Source: a virus. Taken from it: 21,360 nt of DNA. Under the pieces are notes generated by a model. That model had not been told where the DNA came from, made no database searches, and saw only the letters and a program-made list of their open reading frames with translations. Each line of letters opens with the position of its first letter. The first letter of the stretch is position 1. The DNA is taken from the IMG/VR virus record IMGVR_UViG_3300006749_000172, positions 1-21,360 of that record, one strand, 5' to 3'. This document shows positions 5,222 to 20,496 of the stretch, in pieces. Both the position numbers and the translations under genes were made by a program.

Positions 5222-6303
5222 TGGGAAGAGTATTAGTTAAGTCTGCTCTTCCCGGCAAGGTATTGGTAAAGAGTAACTATGCTTTCGACGCCTTTGGTAA
5301 CCCAGTTATGTTGTCAACTCCTTCTACGGAGGATAATTCACCAGTAAGAGGAGAAAGACTTTCTGGCATTTTAGGAGGGGCAGTAGGTGCCGGTTTGTCT
5401 TTGACACAGCCGACTAATAACTTTGGTCAGTTTATTAACAATCTAAGGTATGGTATGTTCGAAGGTGCTAGAGATGCTCGTCGATTAAGAAGAGGTTTAT
5501 CGAGTCGGCGAGAAAAAATAAGAGCCAACAGAGCGGCAGATATTGCTGACAAATATGCTGGCTACAGGTCACAAGAGAATCCTGCTGAGGCAAGAAAAAG
5601 AGGTATGTTTGACAGGTTAACTGGTGGTAACTTTATGACTGCTGGTCAGCAAGAACAAGAATTGTATGAAGCAAATGTGCAAAGAAGACTTGCTGACGAA
5701 AGGGCTGCTAGAAACGCTGCTTTGGGCCAAGAGGTGTTCGATATGGCTGGCGGAATGCTTGGAGAAAGACCAGAAGACTTAACTTTACAACAAGGTCAAG
5801 GTATTTTGGGCAACATTAGGCAGTTGGGAGTGGCAGGTGCACAAAGAGGAAATAGGATAGATGTCCCAACAGTAGCATTACCTCCGCCTACCGAACAACA
5901 AAGGAATGATTTACTGACTGAATTACAAACAGCAACTACCCCAAAGCCGATTGGACCTACTATAGACAAGTTTCCTGTGGGAGGTACAATGAGTAAGCCT
6001 AGTGGTAAAGTAAGAGTTCTTAATGCAGCAGGTAATGAAATTGCGCCCGATGCTAACGCTATAGCCGGGTCCCAGCCCGGAGTACAAGCAGCCCCTCCAC
6101 AAGGTGCCAGTTTGACCGAGCAAGAAGCGGTAAGTAATATACCTGCATCTAATACATCGGTTCCTATTACTAAGCCAGAAGAAGAAAAGCCTACTGAGGA
6201 AGAAGAGGTTGATATGTCTGGTAGCGTAAACCCTAACACAAACCCTAACGAAAAGGCAATGATAGATGCTTTAACGGCTAAATTTACGGGGGCTGGACCT
6301 TGA
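5221..6303 (+). CDS. 360-residue protein with N-terminal VLVKS repeat, unknown function
   Basis: Starts at the ATG that overlaps the previous TGA (TGATG), with AAGGGGG upstream; a GTG one codon earlier is possible. The first 18 residues carry a tandem repeat, RVLVKS then KVLVKS. A glycine-rich hydrophobic segment follows (ILGGAVGAGLSL, about residues 49-60), too short and weak to call a membrane helix with confidence. Residues 75-180 are a strongly basic, Arg/Ala/Gln-rich helical region (DARRLRRGLSSRREKIRANR), suited to binding DNA or a coiled coil. The last 130 residues are Pro/Ala/Thr/Glu-rich and probably disordered. The stop TGA is shared with the TTG start of TerL (TTGA). I do not recognise the family. 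An internal virion or ejected DNA-associated protein is possible. Confidence 0.8.
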   Translation: MGRVLVKSALPGKVLVKSNYAFDAFGNPVMLSTPSTEDNSPVRGERLSGILGGAVGAGLSLTQPTNNFGQFINNLRYGMFEGARDARRLRRGLSSRREKIRANRAADIADKYAGYRSQENPAEARKRGMFDRLTGGNFMTAGQQEQELYEANVQRRLADERAARNAALGQEVFDMAGGMLGERPEDLTLQQGQGILGNIRQLGVAGAQRGNRIDVPTVALPPPTEQQRNDLLTELQTATTPKPIGPTIDKFPVGGTMSKPSGKVRVLNAAGNEIAPDANAIAGSQPGVQAAPPQGASLTEQEAVSNIPASNTSVPITKPEEEKPTEEEEVDMSGSVNPNTNPNEKAMIDALTAKFTGAGP

Positions 6304-7781
6304 GTGATGTCGACAATCTCATCCGAGATATGGACATAGAGATGTCTAAGAAATCTTTCAAGTACTTTTTTACTGAAATTTTAGAGTTCGACTTTTCTCA
6401 TCATCATGAAGATTGGCTTGCCGGTCTTAGTGAAAGCAGAAGATACTGCGTCAAAGCGAGTCGTGACCACGGTAAATCTGTGTTCTTCATGTCTTATGCG
6501 CTTTGGTTAGCCGCTTTCAAACCTAATACTCACATTATGGTATTCAGTCACAGCCTTGAACAGACACTTGAACACATGCGTTTCATTCGAAACAACATCG
6601 AAAGTGCTGAAATACTCAAGGATTTGAAGCCTACAGGTAAGCCTTGGGCTAAATCTTACTTTGAATTTACCAACGGTAGTCGTATTATGGCTAAGTCGGT
6701 TGGTGGTGCTACTCGTGGTTTCCACCCTGATGTAGTAGTATGTGACGATATTCTTTGGGGTACAACTTCGGGTGAGTTACAAAGAGCAGCCGACTGGTTC
6801 TATACTGTTCTACTTCCGGTTCTGCACCACACAGGTAGACTGATGATGGTCGGTACACCGTTTAGTTACAACGATTTGTACGCTGAGTTGGAAGACAAAA
6901 AAGCATTCCGAGTCGAAACCTATCCGGCTATCTTACCTAACGGTGAACCGCTATGGCCCGGAAGATGGCCGCTTGAAGCACTGAAAGTACGAGAAGAGTC
7001 GATGCCAGCGATTAAATTCGCTCGTGAGTATTTGTGTGAACCGATACACGATATGTCAAGTATGTTCCCTATGACTTTGTTAGAGAAGGCCAGAGATAAA
7101 AACTTAATTTTACTTGACAAGGCGGAGCAAGAGTTCGATGAGAACGGCGAGCCGTCTGGAGTATTTGGTCAGCACTTCATAGGTTGGGACCCAGCGATTG
7201 CATCAGATGCTAATGCTGACTACACTGCTATGAGCGTACTTAGGATGTTACCTGACACTGATGAGAAACAATTGGTACATGTAGTCAACGAAAAAGGACT
7301 GGGTAGCAGTGCACAGAAAAGAAAGATAATTATGCTTAATAGTCGATTTAGACCTGACCTCATTGAACTTGAAGGTAACAACTTTCAAAGAATGTTTGAA
7401 GCGGAACTCAAAGAGATGCGTGAGGATATACCTATCAAAACATTCATGACTACTCGTCAAAAGAAAGAAAGTATGTTTATGAGTTTACTGATGGCCTTTG
7501 AACAAGGTAAAGTAAAAACTCCTTGGGGTAACGAAAAGAGCAAAGAATTTACTCGCAATCTTGAAACCCAACTAAGTAGGTTTGGTATGCAGAAAAACGG
7601 CAGACTAGAGTCTGTGGGTACTCACGATGACTTGGCTATGAGTTTGGCTCTGGCAAACTGGGCTACTAAAGAGTTCAAAGGTAGCATGGTCATGCTCGAT
7701 GATTACCTAAGCGGATTTGATGAATGGTTCGGAGATGTACCACAAGGAAGAGTCGCAGGAGCCAGTTGGTTCACGATATAA
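6300..7781 (+). CDS. terL: terminase large subunit (TerL)
   Basis: The ATP-driven motor that packages viral DNA through the portal and cuts it with an RNase H-like nuclease. In the 493-residue product the ATPase shows a Walker A variant SRDHGKS (residues 54-60), Walker B VVVCDD (145-150) and coupling motif VGTPFS (184-189). The nuclease domain begins GWDPAIASDANADYT with D297 as first acid, continues with LIELEGNN (E356 or E358) and ends GTHDDLAMSLALANW (D443/D444). This is the complete order for the family at normal length. The start is a TTG overlapping the upstream stop (TTGA), with a G-rich stretch ahead of it. The first in-frame ATG is at codon 11. Gene order TerL, one extra gene, portal is close to standard. 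Confidence 0.96.
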   Translation: MSDVDNLIRDMDIEMSKKSFKYFFTEILEFDFSHHHEDWLAGLSESRRYCVKASRDHGKSVFFMSYALWLAAFKPNTHIMVFSHSLEQTLEHMRFIRNNIESAEILKDLKPTGKPWAKSYFEFTNGSRIMAKSVGGATRGFHPDVVVCDDILWGTTSGELQRAADWFYTVLLPVLHHTGRLMMVGTPFSYNDLYAELEDKKAFRVETYPAILPNGEPLWPGRWPLEALKVREESMPAIKFAREYLCEPIHDMSSMFPMTLLEKARDKNLILLDKAEQEFDENGEPSGVFGQHFIGWDPAIASDANADYTAMSVLRMLPDTDEKQLVHVVNEKGLGSSAQKRKIIMLNSRFRPDLIELEGNNFQRMFEAELKEMREDIPIKTFMTTRQKKESMFMSLLMAFEQGKVKTPWGNEKSKEFTRNLETQLSRFGMQKNGRLESVGTHDDLAMSLALANWATKEFKGSMVMLDDYLSGFDEWFGDVPQGRVAGASWFTI

Positions 7782-7785
7782 TTAA

Positions 7786-9105
7786 ATGACACCAAAAGTT
7801 GGGAAGGGTATGTGGCCGAGTCTAAATGTAACAAATACCACTAGTGTAGTGGATATGGGTAATTCTATTCTTACAGACATAGCATCCAATTTAATTCTAC
7901 ATCCTAATGTAGACGAGTCCATTGCTAAATCAATAGCGGCTCAGACTATAATGTTTGAAGAGAAAGATTTACCTCAGCCCCAGTATGCTGCTTTTGCACC
8001 TACTGGAGACGGTTGGTTTGAAGACCGTATAGGTAAAAGTGCTAATGAAATCATTAAAGATTTGAGAAGAGCCAGAAGAATTATGAAAGATGATAAAGAG
8101 GAAATAGATAATATCATTTCTACTATAAGGACTTTGAAAAGTACAGAAGTAGACGCTACACTATCTTTGATGCCTTGGAGTCACGACCACCAAGATACTA
8201 TGAGAAAAATAGGGCTATCAAATAAAGACTTGCGTTCACTTAGGTTGTTCGGTAATACTAGAAAATCTGGCATACTAAGAGCATGTCACTTGTGGGAAAG
8301 TGCAGAAGAAGCACTAATTAAGTTAGATGAGTTTGAAGATGTTTGGGGCGAAGAAGAGAAACACGCATGGGTTAACGCAATGGAACTTAAAAAAGATGCT
8401 AGGAACATCTGGAAAACAACCCTTCACCAGTTTGACAAACTATCCAAAGAACAACAAAAGTGGATGGTGATGGCCAAGTCAGAAGTCAAAGAAAAAGGTG
8501 CTATGTCTGCTAGGGCAATCACAAGTAATTTGATAGAAAAGGGTGTACCTAGACTTAATGTTAACAGAATGTCTAAACTCTTGAAGATGTATGGAGAAGA
8601 AATCAACATCATTTCTGGTCATCGAAAAGGTGAGTACATGTGTATAGACCGAGAAGGCCTGATAGTCAAAGATAATTGGGCTTATGCTGCTGGTTTTTTC
8701 GATTCTAATGGTTATATCAACATCTCAGATAGAGGTGAACCTAAGATTGGCTTTGCTACTACTGGAGATTTAGGCAAGATGCACTGTGAACAACTCTACA
8801 AATCTATAGGGATGGGTACTTTACAACTAGACCAGAGAGTGTATAAAGATGAAACTAAGTTACAACACAGGGTAGCACTTCAAAAGTCAGAAGATATATC
8901 TCAATTTTTACAAAGCGTTACTCCTTATCTAAGAGTCAAGGGAAGCCTATCAAAGGCAATGTCTAGTTATCTTAATACATCAAACAACAAAGCCAAGCAG
9001 TTTTTACAGTATTCTAATCTAGGCGGAACACTCAAAGGTGAAAGGTTATTGCGAGATTGGGGAGTAGACCGTGAAACGGTTTTGAGTTGGGCGGAGGAAT
9101 TTTAA
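7786..9105 (+). CDS. protein with C-terminal degenerate LAGLIDADG-fold domain, encoded between TerL and portal
   Basis: 439 residues starting at an ATG five bases after the TerL stop. Residues 1-240 are helical and charged and are not recognised. Residues 240-295 could be a winged helix (SARAITSNLIEKGVPRLNVN and following). From 297 to about 396 the sequence reads as a LAGLIDADG homing-endonuclease fold: motif AAGFFDSNGYINI (301-313), beta strands (PKIGFATT), helix after it (LGKMHCEQLYKSIGMG), and the typical closing stretch QSVTPYLRVKGSLSKAMSSY. The metal-binding acid at position 8 of the motif is Asn308, so nuclease activity is unlikely. It is not a free-standing intron or intein gene: no intein splice motifs are seen, and TerL and portal on either side are intact. 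A DNA-binding role in packaging is my inference. Confidence 0.78.
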   Translation: MTPKVGKGMWPSLNVTNTTSVVDMGNSILTDIASNLILHPNVDESIAKSIAAQTIMFEEKDLPQPQYAAFAPTGDGWFEDRIGKSANEIIKDLRRARRIMKDDKEEIDNIISTIRTLKSTEVDATLSLMPWSHDHQDTMRKIGLSNKDLRSLRLFGNTRKSGILRACHLWESAEEALIKLDEFEDVWGEEEKHAWVNAMELKKDARNIWKTTLHQFDKLSKEQQKWMVMAKSEVKEKGAMSARAITSNLIEKGVPRLNVNRMSKLLKMYGEEINIISGHRKGEYMCIDREGLIVKDNWAYAAGFFDSNGYINISDRGEPKIGFATTGDLGKMHCEQLYKSIGMGTLQLDQRVYKDETKLQHRVALQKSEDISQFLQSVTPYLRVKGSLSKAMSSYLNTSNNKAKQFLQYSNLGGTLKGERLLRDWGVDRETVLSWAEEF

Positions 9106-10871
9106 TGGCAGAAAAAGGAAGAATAGGTAAATTAATAGAATCAATCGGTAATCCGTTCCGTCGAAGAAGAACTCCAGAACCACAGATGCCTTTGTGGACA
9201 ACTGGCATACAGGAGCCTGTATTAGCACAAGGTATCACTATACCTGCCCTTTACTCAGTGGCCACTGAAAACCTAATACTTAGAACAGTACTTTCTACTT
9301 TACAGCAAGAAATATTTCGTAGAGGTTATTATTGGGAAAAGAAATTTCAGAAAAAATGCTCTTCTTGTGATGCGGAGTTTCAGCACGATGTAGACGAATG
9401 TAAAGAGTGCGGAGATATTAATTTAGAAGAGCCTGACCCTAATCAGTTAGTTTATCCTCGCTGGCTAATCGAGCAAAGAAATTCTATGGAACAGACATTT
9501 ATGGATGTACTTAGAGAAATAGAGTATGACTTGAACATTACAGACGATGCTTTCTTAATATTAATCAAAGAATATTATATGGACCCAGAAACCAACGAGT
9601 TAGCGTTTTACAGAATCAAAGAAATGGTTAGAGGAGACCCAATTTTCATGCGTATCATTGCTGACAAGCGTGGTGTAAGGGGAGGGAGGTTCCGAGTTTG
9701 CCCTGTTCATAGAAATGAAGTTAAGTCTTATTCCGAAGATAACAAATCTTGCCCTACTTGTGGCACAGAAATGCTTGATGTTCACCATGTCAACACAGCA
9801 GGCTCTGGTAAAACCCAGTATTATGTAGAAGGCGAGGTTATCCATGTTAGTAAATACAGGCCTAGTAAACTGTATGGTCGAAGTCCGGTATCTACATTAT
9901 GGCGACAGGCTATGACTCTTACTGCCATGGACAACTACATGTACACCGCTTACTCTAAGCGAAGAATACCAAGAGGTATATTGAGCGTAACTACTGATAA
10001 CCTCGAATCAATGAAATCATTTTTCAAAGCAACTGATGAAAAATTAGAGCGTGACCCTCACTACATACCTAAGATTGGTATAGAGTCTAGTACAGGTAAG
10101 GGTGGAATCAACTGGGTTAAGTTGATGGATAGCCTTGAAGAGATGCAGTATATACCTGCCCGTGACGAAATGAGGCAAAGGATTGCTTCTTTCTATGGCG
10201 TATCTAATGTGTTTATGATGGACACTGGTAAGTCTGGTGGACTTAATAACGAAGGTATGCAAATTCTTGTAACTAATAGAGCAGTAGAGTTTGGGCACAA
10301 AGTATACACTGACCACTTGTTCCCTAGAATTATGGAAGAGATGGATGTTACTGATTGGAAATTGACACTCTATCCAAACGAAGAAGAAGATGAAGTTACT
10401 CGACTACGCCGTGACGAAATGGAAGTAAACATTGCTCAAAGAATGATGATGATGGGTTACAAACCTACTTTATCAGAAGACGCTAATAGAGATATACGCT
10501 TTATCTACAAACAACCTGACCCAGTAGACCCTGCTCAGCAACAGCAACAACAAGGCGGTATGCCTCCGGGCGGAATGCCGATGGGAGGTATGCAAATGGG
10601 TGGCGGTATGGGTACGCCGGGCGCACTTCCGGGTCGTAATATTAGTCCACAAGGCGCTGCTCAAATGGCAAGACAAGCCCAAATGGGTATGGGGCAGCCC
10701 GGAGGAGAAGGTGCGGGCCTAAGAAACAGAGGTCCGGCAAGCCCTCAGAATAGAACCAGTATGGGTTCAGGTGCACCGATGTCAAGTGTTCAACAAAGAG
10801 GCGCTCAACCGGGTGCAGTGCAACAGGCTAGTCAGAGTATAATAGATGCAAGAAACCCTAGAGGGGCTTAG
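9105..10871 (+). CDS. portal protein with two zinc-ribbon insertions
   Basis: Forms the dodecameric channel at the capsid vertex through which TerL pumps DNA. The start is the ATG at 9105, overlapping the previous stop (TAATG) and preceded by GGAGG (9093-9097); an upstream TTG at 9087 is less likely. The 588-residue product has the portal core: LYGRSPVSTLWRQAMTLTAM (256-275) and the conserved region RQRIASFYGVSNVFMMDTGK (357-376) followed by NNEGMQILVTNRAVEFGHKV. Two metal-binding insertions are unusual: C85/C88/C99/C102 (CSSC...CKEC) and C199/H202/C216/C219 (CPVH...CPTC). The last 110 residues are Gln/Met/Gly/Pro-rich and probably disordered. The core is of ordinary portal length; the inserts and tail account for the extra size. 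Confidence 0.9.
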   Translation: MAEKGRIGKLIESIGNPFRRRRTPEPQMPLWTTGIQEPVLAQGITIPALYSVATENLILRTVLSTLQQEIFRRGYYWEKKFQKKCSSCDAEFQHDVDECKECGDINLEEPDPNQLVYPRWLIEQRNSMEQTFMDVLREIEYDLNITDDAFLILIKEYYMDPETNELAFYRIKEMVRGDPIFMRIIADKRGVRGGRFRVCPVHRNEVKSYSEDNKSCPTCGTEMLDVHHVNTAGSGKTQYYVEGEVIHVSKYRPSKLYGRSPVSTLWRQAMTLTAMDNYMYTAYSKRRIPRGILSVTTDNLESMKSFFKATDEKLERDPHYIPKIGIESSTGKGGINWVKLMDSLEEMQYIPARDEMRQRIASFYGVSNVFMMDTGKSGGLNNEGMQILVTNRAVEFGHKVYTDHLFPRIMEEMDVTDWKLTLYPNEEEDEVTRLRRDEMEVNIAQRMMMMGYKPTLSEDANRDIRFIYKQPDPVDPAQQQQQQGGMPPGGMPMGGMQMGGGMGTPGALPGRNISPQGAAQMARQAQMGMGQPGGEGAGLRNRGPASPQNRTSMGSGAPMSSVQQRGAQPGAVQQASQSIIDARNPRGA

Positions 10872-11258: not shown

Positions 11259-11627
11259 ATGAGTGACGAGAGGGAAAATGTCGCTGAGAAACTTATGGGT
11301 GCTTTGATTACTAAGATGGAAAGCATGGATGAGGGTCTACAGATTCTAAAAGCAGAAAACATTGAGTTGAAAAGGGCTATTTCAAACCCAGCAATCTTAC
11401 TTAGAAAGGCTGGTTTTGTGGCTGCTAGGAATAACATGCCAGAAGATGTTATGCCTGACATATTCAGGGGTACGGCAGATGATGTCTTACTCAAAGAAGA
11501 CGGTAGTGAGATAAACTTACCTACCAGTAACCAAGACTTTTACAAAATGGATTGGAACGATATACACGCACTGGCTGACCAAGCAAAGTCAGAAGGTGCC
11601 ATTGGAAATGAAGTAGGAATGGATTAA
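11259..11627 (+). CDS. small coiled-coil protein sharing the scaffold C-terminal MDW motif
   Basis: 122 residues with a strong ribosome site. Residues 1-45 form a coiled coil (ITKMESMDEGLQILKAENIE). The C-terminal part contains MDWNDIHALA (97-106), which matches MDWSEVHNLA at the C-terminus of the protease-scaffold fusion in composition and order (M-D-W-[SN]-[ED]-[VI]-H-x-L-A). In phage scaffolds the extreme C-terminus is where the major capsid protein is bound. A shared motif therefore suggests that this protein docks on the capsid protein or is carried into the procapsid, for example as a second scaffold or a chaperone. That role is inference. The next gene starts after one spacer base. Confidence 0.75.
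   Translation: MSDERENVAEKLMGALITKMESMDEGLQILKAENIELKRAISNPAILLRKAGFVAARNNMPEDVMPDIFRGTADDVLLKEDGSEINLPTSNQDFYKMDWNDIHALADQAKSEGAIGNEVGMD
11547..11576 (+). other. capsid-docking motif candidate, copy 1 (MDWNDIHALA)
   Basis: Ten codons encoding MDWNDIHALA near the C-terminus of the 122-residue protein. The second copy, MDWSEVHNLA, is at 19278-19307 in the scaffold. Six of ten residues are identical and the differences at positions 4-6 are conservative. Confidence 0.55.
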
Positions 11628-12040: not shown

Positions 12041-15000
12041 TTGAGAGAAGGCTCCCTTGAAATCTTAGATAGAGCGAGAGATGTCTTTGTTAAGTCTTTG
12101 ATTGATGGTATCGGTAAGGCTGATGCTGGTGCAGAGTTTTACTTAACCGCAATTAGCGCTGAGCGCAGCGGATATATTATTTCACAGCAAGATGAGTCAC
12201 TAATCAAGATGTTCAATTCTGTAATTAGAAAAGAAGAAGAACAAGACTGGACACCTCAGCCATATACCAATGTAACTGAACAAGGGATGAGTTTTGAGAT
12301 AGACAATGATGCAGGTGCTGGTCTACCCGATAGTCCTTCAATCAACTCAAATAGAGTGGTAGGTGTTGACCCTAATAATGTTAAATATTCTGGTAGGCAA
12401 TTTGAATTAAACGACGGTGAGGCAAATGACCCTTACCGAACCCACAACCCATTAAGTGAAGGTATCAACCCTTTACATGGTCAAGAGGCAGAAGTGCTTG
12501 GTAATTTTTATGTAAGCGACCATCACGACAATGACCCTCAAAGTCTAATCGACGCTAAAAAAGAGGCTGCTTGGGAAGAACATGCTAAAGAAGCAGACCA
12601 TAACTTCTTGACTGAAAACGCACATTACGGTTCACTAGATACCGAACACGCTACTAACCACGCACTCTACTTACATGATTACCAAGAATGGGAAAACAGA
12701 AATCGTGATATGATTGAGCGGCATAGAAACTTAAAACAAGAAGAAGGGCTTTCTGAAAAAGAAATAGACCACCAGTTGAAGACTTTTCACATGAATGAAA
12801 AGAAGAAAGACTGGAAAGAAAACCTAGGTTTTATGGATTATTACCTTGGACTAGAGTTTTTTACTCCAGAAGAAAGAGAAAAGGTTTACCGTCATTTACT
12901 TGACCACGGTGGTTCTAATTCAAGTGACCAGCCTTTGAAATTGGGTAGGCATAATAATGACCCCGACCTTATGCCTAGACTCAAAAGAAGTTGGCAACAG
13001 AGGTTTTCTGGACTTTACGATTGGTGGACAAGGCACCCACAGGACCCTATGCATCCTACTATGACTAAACCTATACCTCTTTCAGAAGATGTTGAACAGA
13101 TAGGTAGAGTTCACAATATGGCTGCTCTTAAAGAAACGGGTTTAGGTCAAACCAAAAGTCATTGGGAAAAAGCAGTAGATTCGTTTAACAAGATGTATCG
13201 AGCGATGGTTGACCCAGACCATAAAGGGTTTATGTATACTCAAGTACCTTATTACGAAAAAGGTCCTGACGGTCAAGAAAAGATATATTGGAGAAAACAA
13301 GAGCAAAAAGCCGGTACAAGAAAAGACGGCTCTCAGAGAATACAGCAAAACCATATCGGTGAACGGCTACTTAGAGATATGTTAGGTATAGACGATAATG
13401 GTCAATTAGTAGAAGACGGGCAGCACCCTCTTTGGGGACCCAGTTGGAGAAAGTCCTATTCTCCATTTACCCAAGATGACATAGACACAATAATGAGAAG
13501 GAGGAGAGACGAGGCGATAAAAACTAGGTCGGCTGGTAGAGCGGCCAGAAACCACGCTATATTTCATTACGGAAGTTATGTTCATCCTGACCATTATGAT
13601 TATACTGACGACGCTGAAACACTTGCTACTCATTGGAAAAAACCTTTCCAAGTAGGTGGTTTGGGTAAGAATCCTAATTTGTTGTTTGACTTGTTGCATC
13701 ATCATTCAATTATGTTTAATCCGAAGGAAGACGCTGCTAAAGAAAAAGAAGCCCAGACTATTAGGGACTTTTACGGAGACGACTTTGATATCGGAGAAGA
13801 TGAAGAAGAAGAAGTCGATTACGAAAAGGCTAGTCGAGAAACTGATTTGGGCGGGTTAAGAGAAAGCAGTTTGATGTTTGATAAAACTGCTAACTCGATA
13901 ACTCCTGTTCATACTGATTTGAACACACGGAGCATGGAGGGGTTCATGGGACCTTTTGGACAAAGGCAGTTAAGTATAATGAGGGGAACTACAGGTGAAG
14001 GTGTCTCTTACAAAGGTGATTTTGAAAGATTAGGTTCTATGCTTTCACCTTTCAATGTAACAGGAACTAAAAGACTAGGTAGTCTAAATGCTCACGATGC
14101 TAGACACATGTCAAGTGTAAATGGTAAATTTACTAATGAAGAGCACGATAAGTTTCACACTGGTAGAATTACGGGTGATAATACCATGGCAACCGCCGCT
14201 CACGATGCTCTGAGAGGCAAAACTGCTAACCATTTAAGAACAAAACACGCCCATAAAGGTAATTTTTCTGATGACGATACAGCGTCAGTTATCAGTCATT
14301 CGTTTCACAGTTTAGGTACAGCGCTAGGTATGGCAAATCCACCTATGGCTCCTGCCAGTACAGTAATTAGTCACAGAGACAGAGGTATAGGTGAAGAAGG
14401 AAGGCCTTCTTCTACCTTGTCTGACCATGCAGACTTAGAAGATTTAGCGTCGAGGTACGCTAGGAAACCAGAAGCGTTTGATAAAGAGTCCGAAATAGAA
14501 AGACTAGAGGCATCTTTTGAGCAAGACCGGATTAGGTTAGTAAACGAAATCGCTGCACTTGATAGTAAGAAACCTCCTGTAGGTGCAAGTGAAGAAGAGT
14601 TAGAAAAGTTTCAAAATTTACTGTCATTTGAAAAAACCAATTTGATGCAAGAGTTGAAAGAACTACCTGCTGGTAAACAGAGAATGCTTGATAGGCTCGA
14701 AGATAACCTTGCACAGCATCAATTCAATTTGGCAAATGAAAATGAAGAAGATATAGGTATGGCTGGTTATGCAGGAAGAGAATTAAACCCAGTAGGCTCA
14801 TTGAGCCGTCAGTTATCCGTAACTGATAGACCAGATAGTTTAGAGCAAGAGTCTGATTATTACGAAGGCTTAATTGCACAAATCGAATCTTTGGAAAATG
14901 AATTTCCTGATTTACCGCCTCAGTTGAAACCTGCTAAGAGTGAAGAACTCGAAGAACTAAGAAGGAAGGCGAAAGATTGGGAAAGGAAAGAGAAAGTCGA

Positions 15001-17905
15001 AAGTAGAACTTTCGGAGGTGACGGTCATTACAATACTTTGCAGAATGTTTTGCGAAGTGATACTAACGCCATAACAGAAGCGGGTATTAAGTTAAAACAA
15101 GACATGATGCAAACGCCAGAAGGTCAGTCACTACTTGCTGAAATCTTTAATCCTAATGCTGATTTTCAAACCATCGCTGCTAACATGCGAATGTGGGCAC
15201 AGATGTCTAATGACTATTTGCACAGGGCTCCTTCTGATGCCCACGACATACACACTGCTGGTAATACAGATACAGATGTAACTGGTAGGTCTGTAAAGAC
15301 TGATGACTTTTCTGCTGATTTGAAAACTTCGGTTTCTTCGTCAGGGGTTAGTGTACCAGAAGACGCTATAGAAGATTATTTTAATCAGAGTAATAGAATA
15401 AATCAGATACTAGACAGCCAACCATATCAAGAAAATCCCAGTAAATATGAATTTTTGATTGAAGATGCAAAGGAAAAGAGGATTGAGTTTGAAAACTCAT
15501 TTATGAATTCACTTGGCTTAGATACATCTGATGATAGATTAAGGCAGACCATGAAAGATTATATCGACAACACCGTACTTCCTAGATTAAACGAAGGTAA
15601 ACCCATACCGCCGGTTATGTCAGGTCGACAGTTGATTAGTCAGAAGTATCCAGATATAGATATTGACGCCATGCTTGCAGATTTGGATAATAACAAACGA
15701 AGAAATAAACCAGATGTTAAAGAGTTTGCTAGAAAAGTAGAACAGATATATGCAGTTTTAGGCCGTAAAGGTTCAGATGAAAGAAGCAAACAGGCTGGTA
15801 TAGGTTTCCAACTTGCACATAACTTGGATGATAGATTTGAAGAAGACTTACATACAAAGCGCTCTGAGTTTGGAAATAGAAAGAAAAAAGATGCTAGATT
15901 CAAAGATGTCAAACACAGAGTAATGCAAACTCTAAACTCTTTGATTACTAGTTTCCCAGAAGTGGAAGCACCGCAAAGTACGACTGAAACAATTAGAGGT
16001 TTAGGTCGTGTCAAGGTAGGGCCGACTGGACATGACACCAGTACGGTACATAGCATTTACAATTCGGGAGGTTTCAAACATGAGTTCGGCCATGAAATGA
16101 GACCAAACTTCAACTATACTTTATCCGCAGACGGTACTCCTAAGATTACTCTTACTCCTGATGGTAACAAGCAAAGGTTAGTGCCTTTGCTTTATTCTTT
16201 CTGGAAAGATATAGCGCCACCTGAATGGTTGGATAAACTCAATTCTCCTGAGCACCAAGAATCAAGGGAGAAATTAAACGAAGCATCTAAGATGGGGGCT
16301 CAGTTTGTACAAGATTCTGTATCCTATTCAAGAAACCAAGACCCAAAAGCCACTTACAAATCAGAAATAGGCTTGGCTGATTTAACTAACCCTGACATTA
16401 TCAGAAAAGACCTAGGACCCAAAGTCCCTACTCTACAACCTATGCATCGTATCTTTGAACTTGATGACCTTGAACACCTGCGTGGCTTTACAGGCGACTG
16501 GATAGTATCTGTTATGCCAGAAGGTGAGAGAGGCTTTGTCAAGAAAGATGATGATAAAGTGACATCGCCTACATTTGATTTATCAGATGATGATAAGAAA
16601 AATTTCAATAAAGTTGCTGATGAAAATTACCATGTGGATGTAATTAAGACAGAAGAAGGGTACTATATTTTCGATGTCTTGGAGTTTGACGATAAAGAAG
16701 TTCACGAAGTAACTATTGATGACAGGATAAAGATACTAAGAGGGGGTATGGAAGGTATTGAGAATATACATCTTCCAAGCGCTAGTGATACTAGACTTAC
16801 AGACGACGCTGGTCTTAAACTAGCAGTTGAAGATTTACAGAAAGAACATGAATCTTTACTACTAAGAGACGCTAAGTCAACTTACATGGCGGGTGAACTC
16901 CGCCACCCTAAGTGGGTTATGCTCAAGCCCGGTAAAGATGTAGTCTTGAGAGTATTGGAAAGAAGAGGCAACGGACCTTATACTTACAGACTAGGTACTG
17001 GTCCAATTACTCAAGCAGAGAGTATAGGTAATCGAGCAGTAGAGTCGGGCGAAGAAACTTACATGGATGTAGGAGTTGCGTTTAACAGTCCAGATAAATA
17101 CAACGAAGGTGACCATGTTAGGGTTAATGCGGCTAATGTCACCAAAGTAGAGTCTATAGAAGATGAGTATGTTTACACATTGACCGGTTCAGATATTATA
17201 GGTGAAGCAGAAGGTGAAGGTCTGGTTAGTCGAGAAACACTTGGTCTACTAGCAAAGTCTCTTGATTCACAATGGTTATGTGAAGTACATAGAGCAAAGA
17301 GCGGAATAAGAGTGGTCATGCCACAAGGCGATGTAGTTTACAAAGCGACAGAATCACTAGGTAATTGGTCTTTACATAGTCCTTTATCGTCTAATAATTA
17401 TTTGATTAGGTTGTCTGAAAGCCAAAGAGCATACTGGGGGCCGATAGCAGGTGCTTTACTCAAGGCTAATTTAGATATTAAAGAGCCTGAGCAAGAAGAT
17501 AAAGCCGAAGTTCATGAATCAAAGGGTGATGGTAAACCTCTAATCCCTCCTAAGAAAATAAAAGAAACTAAGTGGACAGTAAACCAAGAACGAGATAAAG
17601 TATTAGTAAAGGGTCTTTTACTTATCGAGAAGTTACTCAAGAGCGGGGTAGGCTCAGTTGGACAGTCTAGTACTGGTGCTATGGGATTAGGTATTGACTA
17701 CGCTACTCCTATAGAATCACCTATGGGTCCGACTAATCTTCACGACGAGAAGACAATGCCTGACTATGACAACAAAAAACGCCCCGGAGAAGACTCCTCT
17801 ATAGAACCAGAAACAGAAGACCAAGAGGACAAAAAGCACTTAGTCATACCTGTATCAGAAGGTGTACTAGAGATAGATTCAGATAAGGCTGTCTTCCATA
17901 CTTGA
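12041..17905 (+). CDS. 1954-residue virion-associated protein with a degenerate ATP-dependent DNA ligase domain
   Basis: The largest gene of the window, lying between portal and protease, started by TTG behind GGTGAT. Residues 1-1450 are hydrophilic, highly charged and His-rich with coiled-coil stretches (about 810-960), and I do not recognise them. HEFGH (1347-1351) fits the HExxH pattern but lacks a convincing context. From 1462 to about 1705 the order of ligase motifs is visible: PTLQPMH entry, then TGDW (1484-1487) where the catalytic KxDG should be, YYIFDVLEFDD (1541-1551, motif IIIa), ESLLLRDAKSTYMAGE (1604-1619, motif IV with Arg for Lys), WVMLK (1625-1629, motif V), then an OB-fold-like segment including VGVAFNSPDKYNEGDHVRV (1677-1695). 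The nucleophilic lysine is missing, so it should be inactive. The C-terminal 250 residues are polar and repeat LVKG/LLKS motifs. A packaged or tape-like internal protein is possible; no tape-measure signature is seen. Confidence 0.85.
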   Translation: MREGSLEILDRARDVFVKSLIDGIGKADAGAEFYLTAISAERSGYIISQQDESLIKMFNSVIRKEEEQDWTPQPYTNVTEQGMSFEIDNDAGAGLPDSPSINSNRVVGVDPNNVKYSGRQFELNDGEANDPYRTHNPLSEGINPLHGQEAEVLGNFYVSDHHDNDPQSLIDAKKEAAWEEHAKEADHNFLTENAHYGSLDTEHATNHALYLHDYQEWENRNRDMIERHRNLKQEEGLSEKEIDHQLKTFHMNEKKKDWKENLGFMDYYLGLEFFTPEEREKVYRHLLDHGGSNSSDQPLKLGRHNNDPDLMPRLKRSWQQRFSGLYDWWTRHPQDPMHPTMTKPIPLSEDVEQIGRVHNMAALKETGLGQTKSHWEKAVDSFNKMYRAMVDPDHKGFMYTQVPYYEKGPDGQEKIYWRKQEQKAGTRKDGSQRIQQNHIGERLLRDMLGIDDNGQLVEDGQHPLWGPSWRKSYSPFTQDDIDTIMRRRRDEAIKTRSAGRAARNHAIFHYGSYVHPDHYDYTDDAETLATHWKKPFQVGGLGKNPNLLFDLLHHHSIMFNPKEDAAKEKEAQTIRDFYGDDFDIGEDEEEEVDYEKASRETDLGGLRESSLMFDKTANSITPVHTDLNTRSMEGFMGPFGQRQLSIMRGTTGEGVSYKGDFERLGSMLSPFNVTGTKRLGSLNAHDARHMSSVNGKFTNEEHDKFHTGRITGDNTMATAAHDALRGKTANHLRTKHAHKGNFSDDDTASVISHSFHSLGTALGMANPPMAPASTVISHRDRGIGEEGRPSSTLSDHADLEDLASRYARKPEAFDKESEIERLEASFEQDRIRLVNEIAALDSKKPPVGASEEELEKFQNLLSFEKTNLMQELKELPAGKQRMLDRLEDNLAQHQFNLANENEEDIGMAGYAGRELNPVGSLSRQLSVTDRPDSLEQESDYYEGLIAQIESLENEFPDLPPQLKPAKSEELEELRRKAKDWERKEKVESRTFGGDGHYNTLQNVLRSDTNAITEAGIKLKQDMMQTPEGQSLLAEIFNPNADFQTIAANMRMWAQMSNDYLHRAPSDAHDIHTAGNTDTDVTGRSVKTDDFSADLKTSVSSSGVSVPEDAIEDYFNQSNRINQILDSQPYQENPSKYEFLIEDAKEKRIEFENSFMNSLGLDTSDDRLRQTMKDYIDNTVLPRLNEGKPIPPVMSGRQLISQKYPDIDIDAMLADLDNNKRRNKPDVKEFARKVEQIYAVLGRKGSDERSKQAGIGFQLAHNLDDRFEEDLHTKRSEFGNRKKKDARFKDVKHRVMQTLNSLITSFPEVEAPQSTTETIRGLGRVKVGPTGHDTSTVHSIYNSGGFKHEFGHEMRPNFNYTLSADGTPKITLTPDGNKQRLVPLLYSFWKDIAPPEWLDKLNSPEHQESREKLNEASKMGAQFVQDSVSYSRNQDPKATYKSEIGLADLTNPDIIRKDLGPKVPTLQPMHRIFELDDLEHLRGFTGDWIVSVMPEGERGFVKKDDDKVTSPTFDLSDDDKKNFNKVADENYHVDVIKTEEGYYIFDVLEFDDKEVHEVTIDDRIKILRGGMEGIENIHLPSASDTRLTDDAGLKLAVEDLQKEHESLLLRDAKSTYMAGELRHPKWVMLKPGKDVVLRVLERRGNGPYTYRLGTGPITQAESIGNRAVESGEETYMDVGVAFNSPDKYNEGDHVRVNAANVTKVESIEDEYVYTLTGSDIIGEAEGEGLVSRETLGLLAKSLDSQWLCEVHRAKSGIRVVMPQGDVVYKATESLGNWSLHSPLSSNNYLIRLSESQRAYWGPIAGALLKANLDIKEPEQEDKAEVHESKGDGKPLIPPKKIKETKWTVNQERDKVLVKGLLLIEKLLKSGVGSVGQSSTGAMGLGIDYATPIESPMGPTNLHDEKTMPDYDNKKRPGEDSSIEPETEDQEDKKHLVIPVSEGVLEIDSDKAVFHT
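16424..17152 (+). other. pseudo-ligase region (nucleotidyltransferase plus OB fold) within the giant protein
   Basis: Residues 1462-1704 follow the ATP-dependent DNA ligase layout. Motif I is TGDW instead of KxDG. Motif IIIa (FDVLEFDD) and the following VTIDDRIKIL match the family's FDhLyldG...L.eR pattern. Motif IV keeps the Glu but has Arg for the final Lys. Motif V keeps Trp and the second Lys. The OB segment follows directly. Assigned by eye from motif order, without a profile search. Confidence 0.6.
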
Positions 17906-17936: not shown

Positions 17937-19328
17937 ATGGCAGCATCTGCATCACTGAGAACTTCCCCCGTTAATCACGGCGGAAGTATTAGTATTTTGA
18001 AGGCTGATAGCGACCTAGTAATTGCTGGATACGCATCTGTAGAGATGGTAGACAAGCAAGGTGACTTGATTACTAGAGGCGCTCTAGGTAATGCGTTTGA
18101 CGACTTTATGAAAGCAGACGGTTTCCGAAATGTACAACTCGCTCACTCTAACATACAAGTAGGAAGCGTAATACCATCTTACACTGACTCTAACGGTAGA
18201 GTTTGGAAATCCGGCGTTGATGATGCTGGTATGTTCGTAGTCATTAAACTACGAGACGACATAGAAAAGGCAAGAGAAGTTGCCAAAGAAATTCGCAAAG
18301 GTGCCCTTAGAGGTTTTAGTATTGGAGGACAAGCATTCAAGAGAATGCGAAAGAGTGACCAAAAACACGGTGACTACACAGAAATCTCCAAACTAGAACT
18401 TCATGAGGTTACTATTTGCGAAAAAGGTATTAACCCGGAGGCGACATTCCGTATATTGAAGGAGGACACAAATATGAACGATAATGTATTAGGCGAATTG
18501 TCAAGCACACTAGATAGACTGAACGGAAGACTCGACGCTATGGAAAAAGGCGAAATGCCAGAAGCAGCAAAGAGGGCTCTTGAAGAATCTCAAGACAAGA
18601 AACCCAAAAAAGATGAGGCGGAAGAAATGACCGAAGACGAAGATAAGAAAATGTACGGTGCTGAGCACAAAGAAGATGCAGATATGGCAAAAGGATATTC
18701 CGATGTCATTACTACTGACTATCTGAACTGGATGGAAAACACCCTTAAATCAGCAGGCGTTGATATAATGGGTGCAAGAGGTCACTTTGATAGTATAGCA
18801 AAGCAGAATCTAGGTAGTACACCAGAATCAATTGGCGACGGTGCAGATTACTTCGCTGGACAAGTTAAAGGAAGAGCACAAGAAGGTGGTTCACCATCTA
18901 CTAACGCTATCGGTAAAATCAACAGCGGCGGAAGCGGCGCAGTAGCAAAAGGATACTTACACCCAAGTGGAGTTTCCGCAACTGACCTTGAAGCAGCATA
19001 TGAAGTTTACAAAGCAGCATCTCTTGAAGAACAATTCAAATCCAATCTAGGAAATGTATTTGCTGACAGACTAAACAAAGAACTTACATCAGAAGCACAA
19101 GCAAGAGAAGCCGCTTCCTTTGACGCAAGAACACCACTTGCTAACATCGAAAAGGCATTGTCTGACCTAAGTGGCAGAATTGACAACATTAGTAAGTCAT
19201 CTGACTCAGTAGAGGCAGCAACAATCAGAAAACAACTTTCCACTATCGAAGTTCCTTCGACAATGGACATGGCAAGCATGGACTGGTCAGAGGTACACAA
19301 CCTCGCTGGGAGTGTTTTCAACAACTGA
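17937..19328 (+). CDS. HK97-family prohead protease fused to scaffold
   Basis: A self-assembling procapsid serine protease joined to its scaffold, 463 residues. The protease part (1-175) has the family signature: GYASVEMVDKQGDLITRGAL (31-50), LAHSN with His70, RGFSIGG with Ser128, and LELHEVTICEKGINPEATFR (153-172), corresponding to the usual L-x-EVSLV-x-x-PANP-x-A strand. His156 could be the third catalytic residue. The scaffold part (180-463) is acidic and helical (residues 183-245 are coiled coil and Lys/Glu-rich) and ends MDWSEVHNLAGSVFNN, a likely capsid-binding helix. SILKAD at 19-24 resembles ELLKAD in the capsid protein, so the protease may trim itself there. The ATG has no ribosome site; a TATA-like box lies upstream. 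An internal strong start at codon 180 probably yields free scaffold. Confidence 0.93.
   Translation: MAASASLRTSPVNHGGSISILKADSDLVIAGYASVEMVDKQGDLITRGALGNAFDDFMKADGFRNVQLAHSNIQVGSVIPSYTDSNGRVWKSGVDDAGMFVVIKLRDDIEKAREVAKEIRKGALRGFSIGGQAFKRMRKSDQKHGDYTEISKLELHEVTICEKGINPEATFRILKEDTNMNDNVLGELSSTLDRLNGRLDAMEKGEMPEAAKRALEESQDKKPKKDEAEEMTEDEDKKMYGAEHKEDADMAKGYSDVITTDYLNWMENTLKSAGVDIMGARGHFDSIAKQNLGSTPESIGDGADYFAGQVKGRAQEGGSPSTNAIGKINSGGSGAVAKGYLHPSGVSATDLEAAYEVYKAASLEEQFKSNLGNVFADRLNKELTSEAQAREAASFDARTPLANIEKALSDLSGRIDNISKSSDSVEAATIRKQLSTIEVPSTMDMASMDWSEVHNLAGSVFNN
18458..18465 (+). promoter_or_regulatory. internal ribosome binding site for free scaffold
   Basis: GAAGGAGG (from 18458) lies inside the protease reading frame, eight bases before an in-frame ATG at 18474. 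It is among the strongest ribosome sites in the window, while the full-length gene itself has none. Confidence 0.7.
18474..19328 (+). CDS. internal in-frame scaffold protein (nested in the protease gene)
   Basis: A 284-residue product starting at codon 180 of the protease gene, exactly where the protease domain ends and the helical scaffold begins (MNDNVLGELSSTLDRLNGRL). The start has GAAGGAGG eight bases upstream. In lambda the scaffold Nu3 is made the same way from within the C protease gene, so this layout is established elsewhere. The product would be acidic and largely helical, with a C-terminal MDW-x-x-x-H-x-LA motif that I take as the capsid-binding end. Expected to outnumber the full-length fusion in the procapsid. 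The nested start is read from sequence; its use is inferred. Confidence 0.65.
   Translation: MNDNVLGELSSTLDRLNGRLDAMEKGEMPEAAKRALEESQDKKPKKDEAEEMTEDEDKKMYGAEHKEDADMAKGYSDVITTDYLNWMENTLKSAGVDIMGARGHFDSIAKQNLGSTPESIGDGADYFAGQVKGRAQEGGSPSTNAIGKINSGGSGAVAKGYLHPSGVSATDLEAAYEVYKAASLEEQFKSNLGNVFADRLNKELTSEAQAREAASFDARTPLANIEKALSDLSGRIDNISKSSDSVEAATIRKQLSTIEVPSTMDMASMDWSEVHNLAGSVFNN
19278..19307 (+). other. capsid-docking motif candidate, copy 2 (MDWSEVHNLA)
   Basis: Residues 448-457 of the protease-scaffold, six residues from its C-terminus. Partner of the copy at 11547-11576. Confidence 0.55.
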
Positions 19329-19362: not shown

Positions 19363-20496
19363 ATGGCAAGAAATTACATGAGAACAATCAATGATATGGA
19401 GCGCTACTACTACGGTGCTGGACAAAGTATGGGATATTCATACTCTGGCTCAGAACTATTGAAGGCTGATGCACCATTGCTAAGCACAACAGCAGGAACA
19501 TACCAAGCAATCTACGGTAGAAAAGTTTGGTCACAACTAAACCAAGAATTCAACGCATTTTCAATTCTACCAAAGAAACCATGGGACAGAAGCGGATGGA
19601 GAGTAGTTACTGCTAAGCCTTCCAAGACTGTTGGTGGCGGAATTGCAGAGAACGGTACACTACCAGACACAACCAAACCTACCTTCCAAAATGTTGCAGC
19701 AAAGCCTAAAACTATTGCTCACTCATTCGACATGTCTGAGACAGCAATCTTCCTAAACGACAAAGACGACGGTCTAGGTGACATTCGTTCAGTCTTGAAA
19801 GAAGAAATGGGTAAGCATCACGCAGAACATATTAACGATATGCTAACTGAGGATGTAACAACTGTAGCAGGAAATGACTTTGAATCACTTGACAGAATCA
19901 CCACTGGTGTTAACTCAATGACATCTGGTACTCACTACGATGCTGGCGACGAAGACATTTACTCAATCGACAGAAATGTAGCGGCCAACTCTTGGTCATA
20001 TGCTGAGGATTCTGCTGACAGCGGTTCTACTAACAGAACTCTATCACTTGACCACTTGGATGAAATTTTCAGACTTGTTTGGACTCGTGGTGGAAATCCA
20101 AAGGTTATGCTAACTGGATATGATACATTGATGAGAATTCAACAACTTCTACAAAGCCAACAAAGGTTCATGGAAGAAAAGAGAGTAGTACCAACATTCA
20201 ACGGTGTAAAAGGTGTTCCGGGTATGGAAGCAGGTTTCATCGTAGCAACTTACAACGGTGTACCAATCATTCCAACTAAAGAGATGGCTAGTGACGCTAT
20301 CAGCAGAATTTACATGCTGGACACTGACTACCTATACTTTAGTACTGCAAAGCCAACTCAATACTTTGAGTCTGGAATTGAAACTGGAGACCCATTCGCC
20401 ATTAACCGCCTCGGTCAAGAGGGACTTTACCGCACAATGGGTGAAGTATGGACAACTTTCTTTGGAGGTCAAGGTTCTATCCGTGACTTGAAGTGA
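19363..20496 (+). CDS. major capsid protein, HK97 fold
   Basis: The shell-forming protein, 377 residues. The N-terminal 34 residues (MARNYMRTINDMERYYYGAG and on to ELLK34) probably form a short delta-like arm removed by the protease, since after Lys34 the sequence ADAPLLSTTAGTYQAIYG resembles the start of the mature HK97 chain. The core follows with AGTYQAIYGRKVWSQLNQEF, an E-loop region rich in Gly and Thr (GGGIAENGTLPDTTKPTFQ), a spine helix region (IRSVLKEEMGKHHAEHINDM), and the A/P-domain strands VMLTGYDTLMRIQQLL and VATYNGVPIIPTKEM. The C-terminus GLYRTMGEVWTTFFGGQGSI is typical. It follows the protease directly, the classical order, and has a strong ribosome site. The N-arm is far shorter than the 103 residues of HK97, in keeping with a separate scaffold. 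Confidence 0.94.
   Translation: MARNYMRTINDMERYYYGAGQSMGYSYSGSELLKADAPLLSTTAGTYQAIYGRKVWSQLNQEFNAFSILPKKPWDRSGWRVVTAKPSKTVGGGIAENGTLPDTTKPTFQNVAAKPKTIAHSFDMSETAIFLNDKDDGLGDIRSVLKEEMGKHHAEHINDMLTEDVTTVAGNDFESLDRITTGVNSMTSGTHYDAGDEDIYSIDRNVAANSWSYAEDSADSGSTNRTLSLDHLDEIFRLVWTRGGNPKVMLTGYDTLMRIQQLLQSQQRFMEEKRVVPTFNGVKGVPGMEAGFIVATYNGVPIIPTKEMASDAISRIYMLDTDYLYFSTAKPTQYFESGIETGDPFAINRLGQEGLYRTMGEVWTTFFGGQGSIRDLK

Follow-up and report, generated by a model that had tools for sequence, protein, structure and literature searches.

The 21,360-nucleotide stretch of viral DNA analysed here (IMG/VR record IMGVR_UViG_3300006749_000172, positions 1–21,360; hereafter the window) contained an open reading frame (ORF) of 1954 residues with a TTG start (positions 12041–17905), located between the portal and prohead protease genes. 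Near its C-terminal end, the encoded protein carried a domain with the predicted fold of an ATP-dependent DNA ligase, which is almost certainly dead as a catalyst judging by its motifs and is referred to as the pseudo-ligase. This domain was the most conserved part of a giant protein encoded beside the capsid genes, and we consider it to be probably (about 0.6) a module for docking or binding within a large protein of head assembly or of the head interior. The window fits a magrovirus (Magrovirales; archaeal Caudoviricetes of Poseidoniales) by its head module and by those relatives that bear a family B DNA polymerase (PolB), the host group being taken from published work (PMC10768690, PMC12999244). 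The large ORF with its domains and motifs and the terminase, portal, prohead protease, and major capsid genes lie on the plus strand.

Fold of the C-terminal domain

A preliminary description of the window had recognised a ligase from a series of short peptides, all of which were present in the ORF at residues of about 1462–1703, and the resemblance proved to be real. The Pfam family PF01068 (DNA_ligase_A_M) matched residues 1527–1629 with an E-value of 4.7e-6 in the whole protein and 3.5e-7 in the region alone. The score of 30.5 bits was above the curated cut-off of 26.2, and a number of relatives scored below the cut-off. Several NCBIfam ligase models also matched the large protein, at low score. 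A profile of 55 relatives aligned to full-length archaeal ligases by hhalign with an E-value of 1.7e-8.

The AlphaFold model calculated from the alignment of these 55 relatives had a pLDDT (predicted local distance difference test) of 83.8 and a pTM (predicted template modelling score) of 0.71. Its best structural match was the P. furiosus ligase (PDB code 2cfm), with a Z score of 18.6 and a root-mean-square deviation of 3.3 Å over 255 residues, which covered both the nucleotidyltransferase and OB parts that the preliminary description had expected of a predicted structure. The nucleotidyltransferase (adenylation) fold was assigned to residues 1455–1640 (positions 16403–16960) by Pfam, hhalign, and AlphaFold. 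It was followed by an OB-like fold in the ligase position at residues 1641–1725 (16961–17215), which lay within the alignments of model positions 1–278 to 2cfm and 4eq5. The 50 structural matches listed for the domain model were DNA ligases only. As modelled, the domain has the fold of the covalent nucleotidyltransferase superfamily and belongs to its ligase branch, with the nucleotidyltransferase part preceding the OB part; it is too diverged for reliable phylogenetic placement.

The best viral structural match was an unnamed 827-residue viral protein (BFVD A0A516LT18; E 8e-20, 26% identity). In one magrovirus subgroup (L244, L245, and L246), the pseudo-ligase domains scored higher against the cap-binding model of snurportin-1 than against the ligase model. 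Snurportin-1 is a cap-binding protein that serves as a eukaryotic import factor.

Catalytic motifs

Aligned globally as profiles, the domain and true archaeal ligases showed no gaps over PTLQPMHRIFELDDLEHLRGFTGDWIVSVMPEGERGFVKKDDDKV and the ligase sequence from the PMLA lead-in through FEIKYDGARVQVHKDGSKV. Therefore, MPEGER (residues 1492–1497; positions 16514–16531) corresponds to ligase motif I (K-x-D-G-x-R, as in KYDGAR), with Met1492 at the position of the catalytic lysine and Arg1497 retained. The preliminary description had instead taken TGDW as motif I, with Thr1484 in place of the lysine. This assignment was wrong, since PTLQPMH aligned with the PMLA lead-in and TGDW with the ligase GGEA. 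TGDW belonged to a T/S-G-D/E-W element with an invariant Trp1487 (positions 16490–16501), one strand before motif I.

Conservation was counted in a core set of 102 distinct domains and in a larger set, where 200 of 209 domains span the position of the motif I lysine. This position was occupied by Met in 55, Phe in 16, Leu in 9, Tyr in 9, Trp in 7, Ile in 3, and Ser in 3 of the 102 domains, and by Trp in 83, Met in 56, Tyr in 27, Phe in 16, Leu in 10, Ile in 5, and Ser in 3 of the 200. None of the 200 had lysine; the residue is thus absent from every relative examined, and not from the window protein alone. The Arg1497 position was Arg in 190 of the 200 domains, and Trp1487 was invariant in the larger set as well. 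In distant relatives, which carried FYDGER or FYDGKR, only the lysine was missing from an otherwise intact ligase motif I.

The remaining motifs were retained to different degrees. The motif III-like segment FDVLEF (positions 16670–16687) kept Asp1545 (Asp in 94 and Glu in 8 of the 102 domains). In motif IV, ESLLLR (16850–16867; EGhhhK in ligases), the lysine was replaced by Arg1609, which was Arg in 102/102 core domains; in the larger set the position held Arg in 203, Lys in 3, and Cys in 1 of 207, and the motif IV glutamate was unconserved among relatives. In motif V, WVMLK (16913–16927; WhKhK in ligases), the first lysine was replaced by Met1627 and, among relatives, by Leu, Met, Val, or Ile, and the second position was variable (Arg, Ser, Lys, Gln, Thr, Asp, and others). 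Both of these substitutions had been read correctly in the preliminary description. The nick-contacting arginine of motif Ia was absent from the domain.

Compared with LigI-type ATP-dependent ligases of archaea and eukaryotes (2cfm, PF01068), the pseudo-ligase shared the nucleotidyltransferase and OB fold and the order of the motifs, and motif III, the motif I arginine, and the motif V tryptophan were recognisable. In contrast to these enzymes, it had lost the motif I lysine, the first lysine of motif V, and motif Ia, had arginine for the motif IV lysine, was located near the C-terminal end of a 1954-residue head-module protein, and was accompanied by no detectable ligase DNA-binding domain. 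By sequence, the loss of the catalytic residues would prevent formation of lysyl-AMP and, with it, DNA joining. A domain that is catalytically dead yet tightly conserved must serve some role, and the loss of the catalytic lysine in every relative (about 200) points to the binding of something and not to DNA joining.

Architecture and constraint of the large protein

Full-length homologues were about 1600–2010 residues long in most loci. The N-terminal 1446 residues (positions 12041–16378) were fast-evolving, with an identity per 50 residues of mostly 0.23–0.57 against 0.64–0.87 in the C-terminal part. They contained no Pfam or PHROG domain common to several members, and no domain of known function was recognised in them. 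The sequence HEFGH (residues 1347–1351) was considered as a metalloprotease site and ruled out, being unconserved among relatives. The C-terminal 229 residues (17216–17902) were conserved. The ratio of nonsynonymous to synonymous substitution rates was about 0–0.07 in the pseudo-ligase domain and 0.13–0.34 in residues 1–1440, which indicates stronger purifying selection on the domain, the values being simple Nei-Gojobori counts in which synonymous sites were saturated or almost so for many pairs.

The pseudo-ligase gene was present as a single copy in 22/22 long contigs, and the prohead protease gene directly followed the large ORF at its 3′ side in all 24 loci checked. In the nine contigs that had both, the large gene was 43–59 kb from PolB and on the opposite strand (9/9), in agreement with the published magrovirus layout of two modules running in opposite directions (PMC10768690). 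This distance and orientation place the large gene outside the replication module. Searches for homologues of the large protein found none in cellular genome contigs and no real match in GenBank phages.

Role of the pseudo-ligase domain

The reading of the pseudo-ligase as a docking or binding module supposes that the nucleotidyltransferase and OB module of a ligase-family protein was captured by a magrovirus ancestor, would then have lost its catalytic lysine, and became fixed as the conserved C-terminal part of a large head-module protein of about 1800–2000 residues. This protein would act in head assembly or sit inside the head; from the gene position only, its packaging in the virion is plausible. 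The dead module would serve as a non-covalent docking or ligand-binding unit anchoring the long, fast-evolving N-terminal part, and the magroviruses, lacking a ligase gene, would depend on the host enzyme.

The same slot was occupied by another protein in the sister haloviruses HVTV-1 and HCTV-1 (Druskaviridae). HVTV-1 gp115 (1313 residues) and HCTV-1 gp109 (1210 residues) were also very large, were encoded between the portal and head protease genes, and carried a Zeta_toxin domain. In HVTV-1 gp115 (L306:13623–17564) this domain (E 3.3e-20) was joined by an ADP-ribosyltransferase domain (ADPrib_exo_Tox, E 1.4e-8). In contrast to the magrovirus protein, the halovirus proteins had no ligase match, and they showed no detectable homology to it. 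A Zeta_toxin protein in this position indicates that the slot can hold large multi-domain accessory proteins. By analogy, the slot equivalence points to an accessory head protein, which is suggestive but not proof.

Several points weigh against the docking or binding module. Docking is a guess, because the N-terminal 1446 residues are without a recognised domain. The invariant residues (Arg1497, Arg1609, and Lys1624-Trp1625) are concentrated in the former active-site motifs, a pattern equally compatible with a protein partner and with a small molecule or phosphate as ligand. In the absence of sequence homology, the comparison with the halovirus proteins is one of position. Reliance on the host ligase is tentative, as no contig is proven to be complete and a diverged ligase-like family is encoded on the PolB side.

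The reading of the domain as a pocket for a nucleotide or cap-like ligand, similar to that of snurportin-1, has a small but appreciable chance of being correct. Like the m3G-cap-binding domain of snurportin-1 (PF21974), the pseudo-ligase would be a lysine-less relative used for binding, and the two share a similar WIVxVxPxGxR segment. The snurportin sequence EWIVVVCPVGKRALIV aligned without gaps to the viral motif I region, and EWIVVVCPVGKR of snurportin also lined up with the motif I region of the virus domain. The Pfam model SPN1_m3Gcap_bd matched L245 above the cut-off (28.1 bits, E 2.5e-6), with L244 and L246 just below it. Such a pocket would also agree with the invariant Trp1487, the invariance of the old pocket residues, and a lysine position taken by aromatic or bulky side chains. 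However, the Pfam match spanned part of the domain, was limited to one magrovirus subgroup, and did not extend to the window protein itself, and the E-values against PDB chains were weak (0.012). Capped RNA is not known from these hosts. Snurportin was not among the 50 structural matches listed, which does not exclude the likeness.

The preliminary description had proposed that a captured ligase fold was kept, after the loss of catalysis, for binding DNA or DNA ends, perhaps packaged ends or as a packaged internal protein. The first part of this proposal agrees with the fold, the selection, and the location in a structural-module gene; the second part, the binding of DNA and in particular of nicks or genome ends, is unlikely. 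It is favoured by the nucleotidyltransferase and OB fold, closed as in 2cfm, by the head-module position, and by Arg1497 of motif I, which was invariant in the core set. However, the nick-contacting arginine of motif Ia was missing, no N-terminal DNA-binding domain of ligases was detected in the large protein, and the domain was acidic: its net charge averaged −5.5 per 100 residues, whereas true archaeal ligases ranged from −2.1 to +3.6. As a measure of DNA binding this is crude, since it averages over the whole domain and would pass over a local basic patch. End binding was weakened by these three observations.

It is more doubtful that the large protein is an effector ejected into the host with the DNA, in which the pseudo-ligase would compete with the host ligase or with another host partner. 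The slot equivalence with HVTV-1 gp115, a Zeta/ADP-ribosyltransferase protein that may be ejected, and the large fast-evolving N-terminal part are in favour of this idea. However, the N-terminal part was alignable between viruses and was not swapped for different domains, homology to the halovirus protein was not found, and the packaging and ejection of HVTV-1 gp115 are only assumed here. Finally, a nucleotidyltransferase that is still active, with another nucleophile or without a covalent intermediate, is very improbable in spite of the invariant Lys1624, Arg1609, Arg1497, and Asp1533, as Lys1624 is an ordinary residue before the motif V tryptophan in true ligases (RGKKWLKIK), the first lysine of motif V and motif Ia were lost too, and the lysine position is filled by bulky residues.

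Head module and relatives of the window

The window covered the head-module genes of a tailed virus of archaea, in which PHROG and Pfam profiles identified the terminase large subunit, portal protein, S78 protease, and SU10/HK97 major capsid protein in this order. The terminase large subunit was encoded at positions 6300–7781 (PHROG, 1.8e-63) and the portal protein at 9087–10871 (PHROG, 1.5e-65). The prohead protease (Peptidase_S78), the next gene 3′ of the large ORF, was encoded at 17937–19328 (Pfam, E 1.9e-10; PHROG head maturation protease), and the major capsid protein at 19363–20496 (PHROG, 7.1e-56; Pfam SU10_MCP, 2.2e-10). The portal and capsid proteins matched those of HVTV-1 and HCTV-1 at 28–34% identity.

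The relatives of the large protein were found in IMG/VR contigs of up to 118 kb, and PolB was present in most of the long ones tested. The PolB-bearing relatives were about 75–110 kb; magroviruses have been described as 90–110 kb viruses of Poseidoniales (PMC10768690, PMC12999244).

Two further features were observed in the module. The ORF at 7786–9105, between the terminase and portal genes, overlapped the start of the portal gene and had an HNH/homing-endonuclease-like match (PHROG 5046, E 4.7e-6); its segment AAGFFDSNGYI resembled LAGLIDADG. A tag, W-x-D/E-I/V-H-x-L-A, was located near the C-terminal ends of both the 122-residue ORF at 11259–11627 and the prohead protease (positions 11553–11582 and 19284–19313, respectively). 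Among 19 loci, the tag was present in nearly all proteases and in about two thirds of the small ORFs, and it could serve both proteins as a peptide for head targeting or scaffold contact.

DNA ligases of magroviruses

PF01068 found the pseudo-ligase gene in 24 of 25 contigs, with a best score of 33 bits against 200–220 bits for cellular ligases, and no intact PF01068 ligase was found in any of the 25. RNA_ligase (PF09414) was absent from the 12 contigs searched, and the NAD-dependent ligase (PF01653) from the 22 searched.

A second PF01068 match, of 12 bits in one contig, belonged to a family of 460–525 residues (L504–L515, L300:997–2376 on the minus strand, and L503), which 15 of 22 contigs encoded (E <1e-20). 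In the nine contigs where the distance was determined, its gene and PolB shared a strand and were 6.5–7.9 kb apart. The family was collinear with archaeal ligases over 447 columns, although weakly (P 0.002, against 0.06–0.9 for ten column shuffles), and its alignment with the pseudo-ligase was more local (P 8e-5). It was not convincingly recognised in Pfam, NCBIfam, and PDB profile searches. An invariant Leu-His was located near the place of motif I, and Lys-x-Asp-Gly was absent. The family may represent another ligase that has degenerated, or it may be unrelated. Since this ligase-like protein on the PolB side is also without the lysine, magroviruses may have no working ligase of their own.

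Magroviruses have been stated to encode a DNA ligase (PMC10160649), specified elsewhere as ATP-dependent (PMC10768690, PMC12999244), and one read that matched a Group A magrovirus reportedly covered both a ligase gene and the prohead protease gene (PMC7318539), an order also seen for the pseudo-ligase gene. The published ligase (Aoguangviridae and Apasviridae profiles) has been counted in an almost complete replication set, whereas the pseudo-ligase is an apparently dead domain in the morphogenetic module. Because the contigs held no intact ligase and the gene order was the same as that reported (PMC7318539), the published ATP-dependent ligase is probably the pseudo-ligase gene, at least for some members of the group, and the published statements of a magrovirus-encoded DNA ligase probably need correction. 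A broader proposal is tentative and has somewhat less than an even chance: the ligase ascribed to the whole order would be an enzyme that has died and now serves a giant head protein by binding a ligand or partner, its lysine lastingly replaced by aromatic or bulky residues, and the viruses may replicate without a working ligase of their own.

The pseudo-ligase is a defined domain, open to expression and testing. The hosts of magroviruses are among the most abundant archaea of surface seawater, and the viruses have been described with a near-complete replisome including DNA ligase. If the published ligase is a dead head-module domain, the extent to which magroviruses need the host to seal Okazaki fragments would have been misjudged, and the fold of a replication enzyme would have found a second, non-catalytic use in virion morphogenesis, where strong selection maintains it.

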